Source: a virus. Taken from it: a stretch of 22,943 nucleotides of DNA. Positions 8,980-22,943 of the stretch are shown piece after piece (position 1 is the first letter of the stretch; the number at the start of each line of letters is the position of its first letter). Location of the stretch: IMG/VR virus record IMGVR_UViG_3300033144_003539, positions 1 to 22,943 of that record; one strand, given 5' to 3'. Position numbers and translations under genes: made by a program. The notes under the pieces are model-generated. The model did no database searches. It was not told the DNA's origin and worked only from the letters and a program-made list of their open reading frames with translations.

Positions 8980-10449
8980 CTAATCTGCTAAGTCACAACG
9001 TAGAGTAAAACAATGAGTATTTCTGCGAATACAAATTGACTTACTACACATAAAGTGAATGTGTGAAGCATCTTGTTCTGTACCAAGTGCAATCATTTTG
9101 TTACCTCCAAAAGAATATGGAGTATCAGCCATACCTTGTAAGATACCAGTTTTCATAGCACGTCCTTCTTGATGATACATTTGAACGTTTTTCTTACCGT
9201 CATAAACAGACATATCAATAAAGTACATCTCATATGAAGTCATAGGTAAAGAAGTCACAGGGTGACGAGGGGCTTTGTTTGCTCTACTGCCTAAATCAAG
9301 AAGTGGCAAATGTTGAACAGTAATTTTGTGACCATCTTTGTGATGATACTGAGTAAAGTATCCGCCAAGTGCAAGGTTGTAACCTTCTCCAGTAACAAAT
9401 TTATCACCTGTATCCTGAATGAAACCCATTGCTTTAGCTTCATCTTTCATAGCTTCGTCAAATTCTTCAGCACCGCCAGTACCGGTAAATAAACGAACAT
9501 CCATGTTTTCAGTATCACTTGCACCAAACATTACATCTCTTACTACATCTTTTACTTTACGTGCTGTAAGTTTAGAGTATGTATCATTGTTTGGGATTTG
9601 GTCAAGAACACCTGCGCCAATAGGAATAACTAAACCTGTCTTAGGGTCTTTTGTTGGAATAGAGCCGTCAGGTTTACGATTATAACGTGAGTACCATAAA
9701 TGTTCCTCTACTGATTGTTTCCATTTAATCATGAACTGCCATTGTTCAAAAGCAACCCAAAGATTAGTTTGTTTACCGCCGATGTTAAATTTACATTCAA
9801 CAGTTCTATTAGAAACATTACCACCTAATCTCCATGACTTTCTAAGAAATGATAATTGATTCTTCATTTTACCAGGAGCAACAAAGTTAGATTCATTACC
9901 CATAGAAAGTGATTCAGAAACTGCAGCTCCACCGACCATAGCCCACGGAGTACCAGACACAAGTTCACTTAAAGGACAAAAATCATAACGACCGTCATAC
10001 ATAAGTTGAAGTTCATATTTATAATATAAACCAACTTGTACAGGACGACTTACAACTCTAGCCTGAACATCATTTTGTGATTCAATTGTATGGTCAACTT
10101 TAAACCAATTGGTCTTAAATGTTACAAAAAAGTTTGTATTATTTAAACCAGGTTTATCGCCAGCAGTATATTGAGTACTGATTACCATATCTGCTTTATC
10201 AAGTTTGTTAATCACGTCATACGTGTATTGAACATCTTGAATACCTGTACTTCCTTCATAACCTTCACTAAGGAAAGATAAAGGGAATTGTTTGTCTTGA
10301 CGACCCATTAAATGAGTGAGTACAGGATCTAGTTGGTCAGGCTTTGTAAGAAGCGCATTAACTAAACTATTTTGGTCTGTAAACCCACGTCCATCAAATG
10401 TATCGTGATAAACGACTTTAGCAGTCGTCTCAATGTTTGTAAAAGCCAT
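8980..10449 (-). CDS. Major capsid protein, crAss-like HK97-fold
   Basis: A 489-residue protein, the usual size for crAss-like major capsid proteins. It begins MAFTNIETTAKVVYHDTFDG. Recognisable phrases are 'LSMGNESNFVAPGKMKNQLSFLRKS' (in part, about 180-205), 'WVAFEQWQFMIKWKQSVEEHLWYSRYNR' (about 231-258), and a C-terminal P-domain-like run with 'TSYEMYFIDMSVYDG' and 'MIALGTEQDASHIHFMCSKSI'. The assignment rests on these phrases, the length, and the order portal, scaffold, capsid. It assembles into the icosahedral shell around the scaffold. A 41-base A/T-rich leader precedes the ATG. Three cysteines cluster in the last 30 residues, which is not common for capsid proteins and may be worth noting. 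Confidence 0.85.
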   Translation of the reverse strand: MAFTNIETTAKVVYHDTFDGRGFTDQNSLVNALLTKPDQLDPVLTHLMGRQDKQFPLSFLSEGYEGSTGIQDVQYTYDVINKLDKADMVISTQYTAGDKPGLNNTNFFVTFKTNWFKVDHTIESQNDVQARVVSRPVQVGLYYKYELQLMYDGRYDFCPLSELVSGTPWAMVGGAAVSESLSMGNESNFVAPGKMKNQLSFLRKSWRLGGNVSNRTVECKFNIGGKQTNLWVAFEQWQFMIKWKQSVEEHLWYSRYNRKPDGSIPTKDPKTGLVIPIGAGVLDQIPNNDTYSKLTARKVKDVVRDVMFGASDTENMDVRLFTGTGGAEEFDEAMKDEAKAMGFIQDTGDKFVTGEGYNLALGGYFTQYHHKDGHKITVQHLPLLDLGSRANKAPRHPVTSLPMTSYEMYFIDMSVYDGKKNVQMYHQEGRAMKTGILQGMADTPYSFGGNKMIALGTEQDASHIHFMCSKSICIRRNTHCFTLRCDLAD

Positions 10450-14199: not shown

Positions 14200-16533
14200 T
14201 TAAAAAAGAGGTCTATTAAATATACTATTTGTTTGATATGCTTTTGGAGCAGCTCTTTCAATATGTTCAACCTCTTTGATAATATACTCACCTATTATCA
14301 TTGCTGATACTCTATCAAAATTGCCCTTTTTATTCCATTTCAGCAACTCTTTTAATAGTGCTGCATCGTATATATAAGATAAAAATGTTCTTGGCTTATC
14401 ACTACTTGTATCTTTATTAATTACTTCAAGAAGATGATCTCTAAGGTAGATAACACCTTTTTCAAGTCTTGCAGGAGTCATGTGCATACCGTATCCACGT
14501 CCTGCTTTGCCGCTTATATCTTTAGCAAATTGCATTTCAGGTTCTTTACAAAGTAAATGAAGAGCTTTCTTTTTACGCATGAAAGGAATTACATCACCCC
14601 TATCATTCTCAAACATTAATTTAGCATTGTAACGTTGGAGCAAATAAAGTACTTGTTGATTATAATCATCTTGTCTTTCAGGTCTCCCTATATAACTTGC
14701 AACAATCATGCCTCCTTTACTTCCCGTATACTTATTTGGAAGTTGTATAATATATGTCGCCGCTACAGAGTTCTTTGTAGTTATATAATCTGACGTTTTA
14801 TCAACTCCATAAGGATCTTGAAAAGCTATATAAAGTCCATCAGGTACTTTACCTCTTACATCTCTCCAAGGACTTTGATATTCTACAATGCAACCATGAG
14901 GGTCAGTACCTTTTCTTCTAGGAAATTCATCTAATGGTTCATGAACTTTTTTTCCTTCAGCTCTCAGTTCATCATTTGTTTTTAATATAACTCCGTATTT
15001 ATTATTAGGCACTAAAACACCACAACGTCTAGCGTCATTTATATGTTTATTTCTTGTAACAAAATTAAGTTGCGCTTGTATTTCTTCGGTAGGGAATATA
15101 TTATTACTATCTCTAGCAAATGCTTCAGATGGGCTATTAGCTCTCTGTCCGCACCATCTCATAAATGAAGACTCAGTTGCAGAAACAAGTCTTTTAATTT
15201 CTTTCTTTTTAACGTGAGAATCCCAGGCGGTCTTAAAGTTTGTATTACCATTGTAATCCATATGTCCTTCTAATCCATCTACGTGTGCATAAAAATAACA
15301 ACAGGGTGTTCCTTCTGCTCCTTCATCCCACACATTATTACAAGCTAGTATATTAAATGAATCAGGATTATAACAAACTTCTTCAAACGCAGCCCAGTTT
15401 GCATCTTTAGTACCACCTGTACCCCAACCGGTTAAGAATCCTACAATATTATCTCCGGCTTCTGTAGCTGATACTGTTACATCGTATGTTTCTACAAAGT
15501 TAGGAAATTTACCCATCTCCTCAAATTGTGCTTCAACCGTATCTTTACCGATTAAACAATCTGGATTATTCATCGCAGAAAGTGCAAGTATCTCTGATTG
15601 ATACCCTCTTTTAATATTTTCTCCTTTAAGTTTATACCCAAAAGATAATTCACTGTTTGTATCTTTTTGTCTATGTTTACCCCAATCAGTATGCTCCCAA
15701 ATATGATCAGCGTATGATTTAGTCATATTAAACAAAGCTTTCTCACCAGTATTTAAATACTTTAAATCAGAAGCTACTTGCGCTGTAGTACTAAAAGGGT
15801 TTAAGTCAGCGTTATTAAAAGCGCACCAAGCATTCCAATAAGATTGTCCTTTACGTCTTGCTTTACCATAAAAAAAATTTTTACCAATACGTTTTGCAAA
15901 AGCTCTTGCAGTACTAATGTGATATTGTGCATCAAAAAAGTCAGGAAAATCTATTGTCTTACTGACTACACTAACTGCAGAAATCTTTTTCATTAAATCT
16001 GCTACAATAGTTGTTTCTTTTGATATTTGTTTTTTAGAGGCTTTATTTAAATCTTCTTCTGTTATATCAGTATCGTCTGCTGTTCTTTTAATTGGACCGT
16101 AATTTAAGAATCCATACATTTCACTATTAATATAAACTTTTCTTCGCTTACCTTCTTTATCAATTCCTGCCCAAGCTGTCATTCCATTTTTACGTCTATA
16201 CTCTTCTCTGTCGTACCAAGATTGATATTCAAGTCTGTCATACTCAGGATGTAATTTAGTGTACACACCGTGTTTCTTAAAATGCAAAGCAGCTTGTCTA
16301 AATACATCTACATCAATAAATTTTAATTCACTTTGAGGTTCACGCTCGTAAAGAGGTCTTGGAACGAAATCACCTTTTAAATTAGTAGTACCGTATTTTT
16401 GTCCATTATCATAGTATCTTTGAATTACCCAAACAAATGCAATATCCGGATTATTAAACTCTACTTCCGCCTCAAAAGATTGTTTGAGCAAAGCAATGTT
16501 TTTATCATCTGTTATTTTACCGAGTATTTGCAT
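14200..16533 (-). CDS. terL: Terminase large subunit (TerL)
   Basis: A 777-residue two-domain packaging motor. The ATPase domain carries a deviant Walker A typical of crAss-like TerL (GKARRKGQSYW, residues 223-233), a Walker B with the catalytic acid pair (AQFEEMGKF, about 336-343) and a coupling motif (TGWGTGG, 368-374). The RNase H-like nuclease domain shows its acidic residues at D573 (FQDPYG), E642/D644 (FENDRGD) and D740 (NFDRVSAM). It cuts concatemeric genomes and pumps DNA through the portal encoded next door. The start ATG follows an A/T-rich leader of about 85 bases after a terminator. No small terminase gene is obvious; candidates are the unknown genes upstream. Confidence 0.92.
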   Translation of the reverse strand: MQILGKITDDKNIALLKQSFEAEVEFNNPDIAFVWVIQRYYDNGQKYGTTNLKGDFVPRPLYEREPQSELKFIDVDVFRQAALHFKKHGVYTKLHPEYDRLEYQSWYDREEYRRKNGMTAWAGIDKEGKRRKVYINSEMYGFLNYGPIKRTADDTDITEEDLNKASKKQISKETTIVADLMKKISAVSVVSKTIDFPDFFDAQYHISTARAFAKRIGKNFFYGKARRKGQSYWNAWCAFNNADLNPFSTTAQVASDLKYLNTGEKALFNMTKSYADHIWEHTDWGKHRQKDTNSELSFGYKLKGENIKRGYQSEILALSAMNNPDCLIGKDTVEAQFEEMGKFPNFVETYDVTVSATEAGDNIVGFLTGWGTGGTKDANWAAFEEVCYNPDSFNILACNNVWDEGAEGTPCCYFYAHVDGLEGHMDYNGNTNFKTAWDSHVKKKEIKRLVSATESSFMRWCGQRANSPSEAFARDSNNIFPTEEIQAQLNFVTRNKHINDARRCGVLVPNNKYGVILKTNDELRAEGKKVHEPLDEFPRRKGTDPHGCIVEYQSPWRDVRGKVPDGLYIAFQDPYGVDKTSDYITTKNSVAATYIIQLPNKYTGSKGGMIVASYIGRPERQDDYNQQVLYLLQRYNAKLMFENDRGDVIPFMRKKKALHLLCKEPEMQFAKDISGKAGRGYGMHMTPARLEKGVIYLRDHLLEVINKDTSSDKPRTFLSYIYDAALLKELLKWNKKGNFDRVSAMIIGEYIIKEVEHIERAAPKAYQTNSIFNRPLF

Positions 16534-20103: not shown

Positions 20104-20179
20104 TTATTAAACGTATTATATTAAAGAATAGTTTCAATAAAGTTTATATATTCTATATTTATTTCTATAAGTTCTGTAC

Positions 20180-20255: not shown

Positions 20256-20327
20256 GATATATTATAAATAAAAAAATATGTTAAAGTTCTTGGATTTCCG
20301 GAAAATTTTGTTATATTTATATATTTA

Positions 20328-20387
20328 TAGTACAATATACTACACAACTAATAGTACAATATATTATAGAATTAATAGTACAATATA
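20328..20387 (+). repeat. Three iteron-like direct repeats, 24-bp period
   Basis: TAGTACAATATA occurs identically at 20328-20339, 20352-20363 and 20376-20387. The spacers are 12 bases, similar to each other (each of the first two ends in CTAA or TTAA). The exact period and identity point to an array of protein-binding sites. The period also keeps a plus frame open with an eight-residue repeat (NSTIYY), which I regard as a by-product. Confidence 0.75.
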
Positions 20388-20501: not shown

Positions 20502-20534
20502 ACCCTAATCGGATTTATTCGGTTAGGGTTTTTT
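20502..20534 (+). terminator. Strong plus-strand intrinsic terminator
   Basis: ACCCTAATCG (20502-20511) pairs with CGGTTAGGGT (20520-20529) over 10 bp with one G-T wobble, an eight-base loop and TTTTTT. It implies plus-strand transcription enters from the repeat region to its left, although no convincing gene lies there. Confidence 0.8.
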
Positions 20535-20740: not shown

Positions 20741-20744
20741 AAAC

Positions 20745-20787
20745 AAAAGCACATTAAAAATTCTTATGGAATTTTTAATGCACTTTT
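20745..20787. terminator. Two-way terminator hairpin
   Basis: CATTAAAAATTC (20752-20763) and GAATTTTTAATG (20769-20780) are perfect 12-bp arms around TTATG. Outer AAAAG/CTTTT arms lie beyond two mismatches. U-rich ends exist in both directions (CTTTTG on plus; CTTTTGTTTTG on minus). It insulates the two arms. Confidence 0.6.
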
Positions 20788-20899
20788 GTAGTCGCTGGTT
20801 TATTTGCAGGTATGCTCTGTAGTGTTACATATATTAGTAGAGCCTTAAATTTCTGTTTTGGGTATATTGCCTTAAAGTGAAATGGGACTAATCAATTAA

Positions 20900-20917: not shown

Positions 20918-21015
20918 CGCAAGATACCATAAACATTGTTACATTGATTGTGATATTCATTCATTCTTCATGAATCTCACAACCAATGCAACAATTAACC
21001 TTCGACTTAGTTTTG
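20918..21015 (+). ncRNA. Conserved hairpin element, copy 1 (candidate structured leader)
   Basis: A 61-base hairpin (20935-20995) is built of perfect short stems, ATTGTT/AACAAT, CATTG/CAATG, TTGTGA/TCACAA and ATTCAT/ATGAAT, separated by single mismatches. It is flanked on the left by CGCAAGATACCATAAA and on the right by AACCTTCGACTTAGTTTTG. Both flanks and the loop (TCATTCATTCTTCAT) recur in the second copy near the right window edge, while the arms differ. Orientation is inferred from the downstream gene. It could act as RNA (leader or small RNA) or as a DNA cruciform or phage promoter. Confidence 0.65.
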
Positions 21016-21051
21016 ATGATAGAGGCGATATTGCCGTAGTTGCTGTCATCA
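21014..21051 (+). promoter_or_regulatory. Second leader hairpin before the first right-arm gene
   Basis: TGATGATAG (21014-21022) pairs with CTGTCATCA (21043-21051) over 9 bp with one T-G wobble. A small inner GGC/GCC stem lies within the loop. It ends 13 bases before the ATG at 21065 and directly follows the conserved flank of the larger hairpin, so the leader has two stacked structures. Confidence 0.5.
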
Positions 21052-21064
21052 CTAATACTAAGAA

Positions 21065-21340
21065 ATGATACACAATGATTATATCTCCGGTACAATAGGG
21101 GTTTGGGAAGAAAACCCAACAACAGGAATATTCCAAGCTCCTGTAATGGGTTGGGCTTATGACCCAACAACATCTACCCGCAATAAAAAACAAATTGATA
21201 TTTTAACAAGGGAAGAAGCTCCTTCAGGAGAAGTAGTTTACTTCCTCGAATCAAACAAAGACTTCGAGTGGTTTGGAAATAACCAAATCTATCTTGCAAA
21301 ATATCAAAGAAACGAGTCTGACAATGACTTACCATTTTAA
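21065..21340 (+). CDS. Unknown small protein with SSB-like C-terminal tip
   Basis: A 91-residue protein from an ATG after CTAATACTAAGAA. It is beta-rich (DYISGTIGVWEENPTTGIFQ; APVMGWAYDPT; GEVVYFLESN), possibly one small barrel. The last residues NESDNDLPF closely resemble the acidic C-terminal tip of single-stranded-DNA-binding proteins (DDDIPF), used to recruit replication and repair partners. At 91 residues it is shorter than a usual SSB, so it may be a mini OB-fold or a mimic that carries only the tip. First gene of the right arm, next to the origin-like region, which fits a replication role. The assignment is tentative. Confidence 0.7.
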   Translation: MIHNDYISGTIGVWEENPTTGIFQAPVMGWAYDPTTSTRNKKQIDILTREEAPSGEVVYFLESNKDFEWFGNNQIYLAKYQRNESDNDLPF

Positions 21341-21355
21341 AAACAATTTTCTAAC

Positions 21356-21379
21356 GCAGGCACTGTAACAGGTGTCTGC
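21356..21379 (+). promoter_or_regulatory. Hairpin 16 nt upstream of start codon
   Basis: GCAGGCAC (21356-21363) pairs with GTGTCTGC (21372-21379), 8 bp with one G-T wobble and an eight-base loop. It is followed by ACTAATACTTATTATC and ATG. There is no T-tract. ACTAATACT also precedes the previous gene's ATG. Confidence 0.55.
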
Positions 21380-21395
21380 ACTAATACTTATTATC

Positions 21396-21665
21396 ATGAA
21401 AGAGTTTATAGCTTTGTTTCTCGGAGGAGTGTTAATGCTACTATTATGCTACCCAGGTTTGGAGCATGACGTAGTTGTAGAGTTACCAATTACAGAAAAC
21501 AAACCATTCGGTGGTACACTGAATGGTCAATTCGTAGGAACTGACATTTGTTGTGAGTATTGGTTAAACAAATCTAACCAAGATTCTGTAACAACATGGA
21601 CTATCTATTACAGTCCGATTGGTTATCTTACAGGGGACGTATATAGTGTCCAAAAACATAAATAA
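21396..21665 (+). CDS. Small membrane-anchored or exported protein, unknown
   Basis: I choose the ATG at 21396 (89 residues) rather than the GTG at 21372, which lies inside the hairpin. The N-terminus MKEFIALFLGGVLMLLLCYP is a signal peptide or membrane anchor of about 15 hydrophobic residues. The cysteine at 18 is not in a standard lipobox. The remainder is a short beta-rich domain with CC at 52-53 and paired aromatics (TTWTIYYSPIGYL). It is probably placed in the host envelope early in infection, for example to alter surface properties or exclude other phages. Function is inferred from topology only. Confidence 0.6.
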   Translation: MKEFIALFLGGVLMLLLCYPGLEHDVVVELPITENKPFGGTLNGQFVGTDICCEYWLNKSNQDSVTTWTIYYSPIGYLTGDVYSVQKHK

Positions 21666-21675
21666 TTATCTAATT

Positions 21676-21702
21676 AACCCTGTACATATCGTGCAGGGTT
21701 TT
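21676..21702 (+). terminator. Terminator-like hairpin 17 nt upstream of start codon
   Basis: AACCCTGTAC (21676-21685) and GTGCAGGGTT (21691-21700) form a 10-bp stem with one T-G wobble and loop ATATC, followed by TTTT in total then AAAA. The T-tract is short, so termination may be partial. Confidence 0.55.
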
Positions 21703-21717
21703 AAAACTTTATCAATT

Positions 21718-21975
21718 ATGACTAATTTAGAAATTTGGGTTATTAAGCTTATAGGAGTATTTGCAATTGCTTGTCCATTTATTATTGGACTTGAGGCATT
21801 CGGTGGTGTACTTTGTTTAACGATATGGACCGGAGGGTTTACATGTTATTGCATAGGCAATATTATGTTACGTGAACAAAAAGAAGCTTTGCAAAATGAA
21901 AATACTAAACTCGAGAAAAAGTGCAACGATATGTTTAACAGAATAGTAGCACTTGAAGAAGAATTACGTAAATAA
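21718..21975 (+). CDS. Small membrane protein with coiled-coil tail
   Basis: I choose the ATG at 21718 after TTTATCAATT (85 residues). An upstream TTG reading would overlap the previous gene and the hairpin. Two hydrophobic spans lie at about residues 8-24 (IKLIGVFAIACPFIIGL) and 28-49. They are followed by a charged heptad-like helix from residue 51 to the end (REQKEALQNENTKLEKKCND; RIVALEEELRK). This is an integral membrane protein with a cytoplasmic coiled coil, an architecture also seen in spanin- or holin-regulator-like and superinfection proteins. The family was not recognised. Confidence 0.65.
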   Translation: MTNLEIWVIKLIGVFAIACPFIIGLEAFGGVLCLTIWTGGFTCYCIGNIMLREQKEALQNENTKLEKKCNDMFNRIVALEEELRK

Positions 21976-21976
21976 C

Positions 21977-21993
21977 TTATTTCGAAGAAATAA
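21977..21993 (+). promoter_or_regulatory. AT-rich hairpin upstream of start codon
   Basis: TTATTTC and GAAATAA are perfect arms around GAA, ending eight bases before the ATG at 22002. It is weaker and closer than the other right-arm hairpins. Confidence 0.35.
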
Positions 21994-22001
21994 TTAAAAA
22001 C

Positions 22002-22349
22002 ATGGAACTACAGACAAGATTACAAGAACACACTGATATGAAAAAACTTATTGAAAAGCATGTTTACACGCTTCTCCCATTACTATCATCAGGTATAGAA
22101 ACAACACCTGATGATAGTTATAAAATCGGTTTTAAAGAAGCTGGGTATGGCTTTAATGGCGAGAGTAGGATTTGGATATGTGCGGGTATTAGGGGTATTA
22201 CTAATCCGTATGAGGAATTTATGATTACTAAAAGCAACGTGAATTACGTTGTGAAAGTAATCACAAAGTACTTCAAAGAAAAGCCATTCTCATATGATTT
22301 GTTTAAGAGTATTATAAACAAATTGAACAAAGTTTACAAATTTATCTAA
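22002..22349 (+). CDS. Unknown small protein
   Basis: A 115-residue protein from an ATG after AATTAAAAAC. The N-terminal helix is charged (MELQTRLQEHTDMKKLIEKH). It is followed by a mixed middle with strands (DSYKIGFKEAGYGFNGESRI; WICAGIRGITN) and a C-terminal helical region (VVKVITKYFKEKPF; LFKSIINKLNKVYKF). It is basic overall, with no membrane span. No family was recognised. The neighbours suggest an early accessory role. Confidence 0.6.
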   Translation: MELQTRLQEHTDMKKLIEKHVYTLLPLLSSGIETTPDDSYKIGFKEAGYGFNGESRIWICAGIRGITNPYEEFMITKSNVNYVVKVITKYFKEKPFSYDLFKSIINKLNKVYKFI

Positions 22350-22363
22350 ACAATTTCTTAAAC

Positions 22364-22387
22364 ATCCTGCACCAATTGGTGTGGGAT
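22364..22387 (+). promoter_or_regulatory. Hairpin 17 nt upstream of start codon
   Basis: ATCCTGCACC (22364-22373) and GGTGTGGGAT (22378-22387) form a 10-bp stem with two adjacent wobble pairs and loop AATT. It is followed by ATAAAATTATATCAATT and ATG. There is no T-tract. TATCAATTATG is shared with the gene at 21718. Confidence 0.55.
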
Positions 22388-22404
22388 ATAAAATTATATC
22401 AATT

Positions 22405-22752
22405 ATGCCGACATACAGAATTAATACTTGGGAAGGAACAGCAAAAGCTGTTCAAGTAATTGAAAAACTTCTTAGGGATGTAAATCCTAACAATAAACTA
22501 AGAGGTATTTTCAAATTTCTACAAGACACTAAGAAAGTAGAATTTTCTTGGGAAGAATTACTCAATATGAGTAAACTTTATCTTCCGTATGAAACAGTTG
22601 TTGCGGGAACAAATACTTCAGGACAGTTTTATCAACAAAACTCAAACACCGATTGGTGGCTTAGAACCGCTGAGAGGCAAGGAGTTTTTGAACTTATTTG
22701 TGGGAGAGGAGAAGAAGTGGTTTACCTTATGGGTAAGCCAGGTCTTGGTTAA
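22405..22752 (+). CDS. Unknown small protein
   Basis: I choose the ATG at 22405 (115 residues, MPTYRINTWEGTAKAVQVIE). The GTG at 22381 lies in the hairpin. The N-terminal half is helical (AVQVIEKLLRDVNPNNKLRG; IFKFLQDTKKVEFSWEELLN). The C-terminal half has WW at about 90-91 in NSNTDWWLRTAERQGVFELI and ends YLMGKPGLG. There is no membrane span. The helical start and 'WL.TAER.GV' phrase might be a small winged-helix-like fold, but I cannot claim a family. A strong terminator follows within a few bases, so this is the last gene of its transcription unit. Confidence 0.6.
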   Translation: MPTYRINTWEGTAKAVQVIEKLLRDVNPNNKLRGIFKFLQDTKKVEFSWEELLNMSKLYLPYETVVAGTNTSGQFYQQNSNTDWWLRTAERQGVFELICGRGEEVVYLMGKPGLG

Positions 22753-22756
22753 TGAT

Positions 22757-22796
22757 AATATCAATAGGTCTTTACAACCTATTGGTATTGTTTTTT
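22757..22796 (+). terminator. Strong intrinsic terminator ending the right-arm unit
   Basis: AATATCAATAGGT (22757-22769) pairs with ACCTATTGGTATT (22777-22789) over 13 bp with one T-G wobble, a seven-base loop, then G and TTTTTT (22791-22796). It lies immediately after the 115-aa gene. Confidence 0.85.
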
Positions 22797-22825
22797 AACA
22801 TATTAATATTGTTTTATCAGTAGTA

Positions 22826-22943
22826 CGCTAGATACCATAAAGACTGTCAAATCAATTATTGTTAAATGTTACACTCATTCATTCTTCATTCGTTGCACAT
22901 TGAACAATAATTGATTTAACACTTAACCTTCGACTTAGTTTTG
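22826..22943 (+). ncRNA. Conserved hairpin element, copy 2 (cut by window edge)
   Basis: Left flank CGCTAGATACCATAAA (22826-22841) and right flank AACCTTCGACTTAGTTTTG (22925-22943) match copy 1, as does the loop TCATTCATTCTTCAT. The arms are different but again self-complementary: AAATCAATTATTGTT (22849-22863) pairs with AACAATAATTGATTT (22903-22917) over 15 perfect bases, then AATGT with ACATT. Copy 1 precedes a gene, so another plus-strand gene is expected just beyond the window. Confidence 0.65.

Follow-up and report, generated by a model that had tools for sequence, protein, structure and literature searches.

Background

Crassvirales are among the commonest phages of the gut, and their giant polymerase is ejected together with the DNA. 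Integron attC sites are imperfect palindromes with arms that vary but still pair, and they function as a folded single strand. Early promoters of the N4 virion RNA polymerase (Schitoviridae; PMC4496689) stand upstream of the early genes of a phage with its own virion polymerase, contain an inverted repeat whose pairing is more stable on the template strand, and allow stem positions to vary as long as they remain paired; these hairpins have a stem of 5-7 bp and a 3-nt loop near -11. N4-type promoters also involve gyrase, for extrusion, and SSB, for activation. Within the Crassvirales, early transcription in phi14:2 is resistant to rifampicin and has been shown to be carried out by the virion polymerase (review PMC10136315), and PMC10770324 identifies the structure 6VR4 as this enzyme. 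Our literature search, made without the primary polymerase paper, found no published description of a promoter for the phi14:2 gp66-type polymerase.

Here, we analyse a stretch of 22,943 bases, hereafter the window, which is the entire deposited IMG/VR record IMGVR_UViG_3300033144_003539, so that the window edge is a contig end. The window is a Crassvirales fragment, with a terminase at 14200-16533 and a major head protein at 8980-10449 (both minus strand; PHROGs matches of 1e-93 and 1e-96). Its terminase is about 30% identical to those of named crAss-like phages, and a DNA similarity search against named phages gave no match. Towards its right end lies a repeated, directional element made of two boxes, immediately 5' of right-arm (early) genes. 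A hairpin, optional between phages, is inserted between the boxes and takes up exactly the room between them. It is quite possible, although we say so tentatively, that this is a lineage-specific early promoter module, which the virion polymerase may read and in which a spacer hairpin on the template strand is optional.

The repeat copies in the window

An earlier note on this DNA had described two copies of a hairpin element, and their positions, 20918-21015 and 22826-22943, proved exact. The flanks and apex that it took to be common are so: the left flank differs at a single A/T position, while neither the 15-nt apex (TCATTCATTCTTCAT) nor the 19-nt right flank differs at all, the right end common to both copies spanning 21 nt (TTAACCTTCGACTTAGTTTTG). 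The second copy does run up to the window edge, its last base being the last base of the contig (22943), as expected of an assembly break at another copy. The features of this region are as follows, P1 denoting the hairpin between the boxes and G001 the longest relative introduced below.

20743 to 20789, minus strand: hairpin of 21 bp in the region between the divergent arms, its T-run on minus; by pattern a leftward terminator
20923 to 20933, plus strand: box A of copy 1 (GATACCATAAA), from a weight matrix of the seven known copies; joint score of boxes A and B 47.2 (shuffled G001: 21.3 or less)
20935 to 20995, minus strand: hairpin P1 of copy 1, with a 26-bp stem, a 9-nt loop and one mismatch when the minus strand is read
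20997 to 21015, plus strand: box B of copy 1 (AACCTTCGACTTAGTTTTG)
21016 to 21049, plus strand: possible 5' leader hairpin of copy 1, directly 3' of box B; weak (z 0.03), and clearer in the G001 copies
21065 to 21340, plus strand: first right-arm gene, 91 aa, without a family match
21396 to 22752, plus strand: four more small right-arm genes (ATG at 21396, 21718, 22002 and 22405), most with a hairpin in front
22757 to 22789, plus strand: terminator hairpin upstream of copy 2, followed by TTGTTTTTT
22831 to 22841, plus strand: box A of copy 2 (GATACCATAAA), from the joint box model
22845 to 22921, minus strand: hairpin P1 of copy 2, with 25-nt arms that are 92% complementary and unlike those of copy 1
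22925 to 22943, plus strand: box B of copy 2, ending on the last base of the contig

A terminator had been claimed before each copy, which holds for copy 2, directly preceded by the hairpin at 22757-22789, but not for copy 1, where the closest preceding hairpin, at 20743-20789, carries a minus-strand T-run and the closest plus-strand terminator is that at 20502-20529. The latter is a rightward terminator (ACCCTAATCGG..TTAGGGT-TTTTT) with a similar one at the same place in both relatives described below; between the late arm and copy 1 there is thus probably a short transcript running rightward (20.3-20.5 kb). The hairpin between the divergent arms adjoins a AAATACCCCCCA motif and has a longer counterpart of 51 bp in the relative G003 (L016, 9455-9560), likewise with a minus-strand T-run. 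Additionally, a direct repeat with TAGTACAATATA occupies 20312-20387 in the AT-rich divergent region, possibly as a leftward late-gene promoter. Within 21016-22405, several right-arm genes have a hairpin of their own just before the start codon, and ACTAATACT is common to two of the gene leaders; three of the small genes in 21396-22752 were tested against PHROGs and gave no match.

Relatives and the conserved unit

Terminase and helicase searches of viral contigs and GTDB genomes yielded a handful of contigs of this lineage, two of which, besides the window, reach the element; shorter fragments matched as well. G001, of 80,496 bases and near-complete by gene content, has a terminase 84% identical to that of the window, and G003, of 24,800 bases, one that is 76% identical. 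Exact and gapped motif scans of IMG/VR gave true matches in these two only, the remaining matches being without box A or without the hairpin and looking like chance. A search with only the right flank of the window first revealed the G003 copy and two of those in G001; the other two G001 copies were spotted by reading the region.

Across the three phages there are seven copies, all on the plus strand, and what is conserved among them is the pair of flanking boxes, box A (ATACCATAAA, preceded by CTTAAA in G001) and box B (RACCTTCGACTTAGGTTTR), the hairpin being an optional insert. A joint model of boxes A and B scores the copies at 39.9-47.2, everything else in these genomes at 19.3 or less and shuffled G001 at 21.3 or less; trained on the same seven copies, it serves to exclude further copies rather than to prove each one. 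Exactly four copies are present in G001, within 10.26-11.93 kb (box B ending at 10290, 10617, 11088 and 11933). The earlier note had named, as grounds against a selected structure, homologues with arms that do not pair, and the finding goes halfway in that direction: all four G001 homologues are without any hairpin, their boxes standing only 2, 4, 4 and 6 nt apart. The single G003 copy has an 18-bp hairpin of unrelated sequence and lies 29 nt from the contig end. In the three copies that bear a hairpin, one in G003 and two in the window, the gap between the boxes is 41, 63 and 83 nt. The hairpins begin one to a few bases past box A and stop one to a few before box B, and subtracting them reduces the gap to about 1, 2 and 0-6 nt; with the hairpin thus flush with both boxes, folding it out leaves 0-6 nt, close to the spacing in G001.

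This geometry bears on whether the boxes could form an ordinary double-stranded promoter or operator, used by the host RNA polymerase together with a factor from the phage, in which case the hairpin would be incidental or a cruciform with no role in initiation and perhaps a product of replication template switching. We consider this rather doubtful. It accommodates the conservation of the boxes both with and without a hairpin, the presence of the Bacteroidetes -7 motif TAnnTTTG in three of the seven box B copies, and the lack of significant common ancestry between the hairpin arms. However, duplex spacing that ranges from 2 to 83 bp is hardly compatible with binding of the two boxes as a pair, the hairpins occur flush with the boxes in all three copies of two phages, and the 15-nt apex is identical in both window copies; TAnnTTTG is moreover not fitted by the G001 copies, and no TTTG stands at -33 at the usual spacing. 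As a candidate class, the Bacteroidetes sigma promoter (TAnnTTTG at -7, TTTG/TTG at -33) was rejected, TTG occurring at loose spacing in one copy only.

All copies lie where the rightward arm starts, at its left end. Comparison with crAss001 and phi14:2 (PMC10136315, PMC8375218) identifies this arm as the early/middle one; in G001 it leads on to DUF932 and helicase genes, and every G001 copy is upstream of small genes. The expectation that more copies should stand upstream of right-arm genes is thus borne out in the relatives. Both the window contig (22943) and the G003 contig (24800) end at or just 3' of box B, and since assemblers break at repeats, further copies probably follow beyond these ends in both genomes.

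It is quite improbable that the element is instead a site of replication or recombination, either a single-strand initiation signal or a repeat for the exchange of early gene cassettes. Gene sets of differing content are flanked by the direct repeats, and the cumulative GC skew of the window has its turning point at 20112, which is 0.8 kb from copy 1 and near the switch in gene direction; the turn follows the gene direction and therefore says little on a replication site. Four dispersed copies in G001, each before genes, fit promoters better than an origin. The imperfect palindrome, with arms that vary yet pair, does resemble integron attC, which was rejected as a class because inspection of the flanks revealed no RYYYAAC/GTTRRRY core sites, an absence that also speaks against a recombination site.

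Pairing of the hairpins and the strand that folds

The earlier note was right that each copy pairs with itself over arms that differ from those of the other: the stems are real, and the arms are not significantly alike. Stems in the window have minimum free energy z-scores of -3.0 to -5.8 as RNA and -3.1 to -6.2 as DNA, and none of 2000 dinucleotide shuffles folds as well as the sequence enclosed by the flanks, in either copy or on either strand. No short-loop hairpin in the entire window is stronger than that of copy 1, and the arms of copy 2 (25 nt, 92% complementary) are the best among the inverted repeats listed for it. Stem lengths are 26 bp in copy 1, 25-33 bp in copy 2 and 18 bp in G003, with loops of 4-27 nt, and each of the three hairpins is a different sequence. 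Likeness between the arms of copies 1 and 2 was not significant, 6% and 9% of shuffles reaching the observed alignment score, so that homologous arms with compensatory changes are not supported. An Rfam search of the window at gathering score gave no match. P1 was likewise rejected as an intrinsic terminator, for which a T-run should come after a G+C-rich hairpin, being followed by AACCTTCG on the plus strand and by TTTATGG on the minus strand and absent from the terminator scan.

Arm mismatches of the hairpins between the boxes are mostly A-C on the plus strand, that is, G-T wobbles on the minus strand, which is the template for the right-arm genes. In a strand-neutral count, these three hairpins have six G-T wobbles on minus against one on plus, whereas seven leader and terminator hairpins, taken as expected plus-strand RNA, have 11 on plus against three on minus. 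The contrast (Fisher p 0.016) is suggestive only, since three further leaders, whose stems are weak or imperfect, were excluded, and the 6:1 split taken alone gives p 0.125 on small numbers. The pairing of P1 may favour the template strand. A 5' leader or small RNA read from the plus strand, as the earlier note had proposed among its options, is disfavoured because the mismatches are A-C on that strand and mRNA-like leader hairpins start only past the right flank.

Wobbles on the minus strand are equally expected of a leftward RNA, and P1 could then be part of a small RNA or antisense RNA whose start lies in box B or to its right and which folds on the minus strand, the one from copy 1 ending at 20743-20789. 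The T-run of that hairpin is indeed on the minus strand, and the 51-bp hairpin at the same place in G003 has, read by eye, mostly minus-strand wobbles. We nevertheless regard such an RNA as unlikely: copy 2 has no nearby leftward terminator and its RNA would be antisense to the gene array, the flanks are conserved in G001 without any hairpin, and Rfam holds no match.

Comparison with virion polymerase systems

The earlier note saw no virion RNA polymerase in the window, and its gene indeed falls outside it: the nearest long relative encodes a homologue. In G001, positions 39260-55363 (L012) hold a single protein of 5367 aa with DFDVD, which contains the virion RNA polymerase domain and whose central part matches PDB chain 6vr4_A, the phi14:2 DNA-dependent RNA polymerase (E 2e-33). 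The lineage thereby shares with phi14:2 the phage order, a homologous polymerase and a genome plan with a divergent early/middle arm (PMC10136315). In phi14:2 and three other Crassvirales (Carjivirus, crAss001 and cr127), by contrast, the early regions have no comparable repeated intergenic motif and nothing clearly above shuffles, so that if the virion polymerase reads the element, the promoter must be lineage-specific. The early module of crAss001 does have a TCTGGAGTGTTAAT-like motif in three intergenic regions (L055, 19122-21986, minus strand), slightly above most shuffles. Two-barrel polymerases and short lineage-specific motifs at pre-early and early genes are also features of the virion and non-virion polymerase promoters of P23-45 (PMC10770324); the motifs there are AT-rich or GC-rich, and the text searched contains neither a two-box plan nor the word 'hairpin'.

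With the N4 promoters (PMC4496689), the element shares its place before the first right-arm genes of phages whose lineage has a virion polymerase, an inverted repeat, with pairing that may be more stable on the template strand, and stem positions that can vary while remaining paired. If the base after TTTR is +1, the 7-nt centre of box B lies at -11 with short inverted repeats on either side, as in N4; box B as a small conserved hairpin was rejected, however, its inverted repeat being broken in three of six distinct sequences without a compensating change. P1, by contrast, has a stem of 18-33 bp against 5-7 in N4 and a loop of 4-27 nt against 3. It stops some 20 nt short of the presumed start, on the 5' side, and is absent from G001, and these sizes, this position and the hairpin-free phage rule out an N4-type hairpin promoter. 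The N4 enzyme is T7-like, while the crAss enzyme is a two-barrel polymerase and that of this lineage matches the two-barrel 6vr4, so an N4-type system by way of a T7-family virion polymerase was rejected as well.

We infer that the two-box element is a predicted promoter module of the early genes, with the start right after box B. A purine stands directly 3' of box B, and in three of the four G001 copies a 7-9 bp stem of mRNA type starts at the first base 3' of it, which we read as the start of the mRNA. Box B would then end at about -1 and transcription would start at the purine after TTTR, the early mRNA often beginning with a protective hairpin of its own. Less certainly, the crAss-like virion RNA polymerase may encounter the promoter while the template strand is single-stranded or extruded; P1 would fold on that strand, so that only a few bases separate boxes A and B, the arrangement seen in the hairpin-free phage. 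Folded P1 could be simply tolerated or could help to keep the region open, and its arm sequence would drift freely while pairing on the template strand was kept. That the virion polymerase reads the single-stranded template strand at this candidate promoter is speculative; the location of the element and the presence of the polymerase gene are consistent with early transcription by a gp66-type enzyme. Against the promoter reading as a whole stand the small number of copies, only seven in three phages, and the fact that G001 does without the hairpin.

Significance

In its strongest form, the promoter reading would amount to the first class of promoter for the virion RNA polymerase of a crAss-like phage: two boxes that act as a signal on single-stranded template, with an exactly fitting hairpin of free sequence that is gained and lost because it folds away; we think it on the unlikely side that all of this holds. 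The lineage nevertheless offers a short and sharply defined promoter candidate with natural variants that carry or lack the hairpin, and owing to these variants the promoter question can be addressed directly in vitro. A hairpin inserted between two promoter boxes would make most sense if the form that is recognised is single-stranded.
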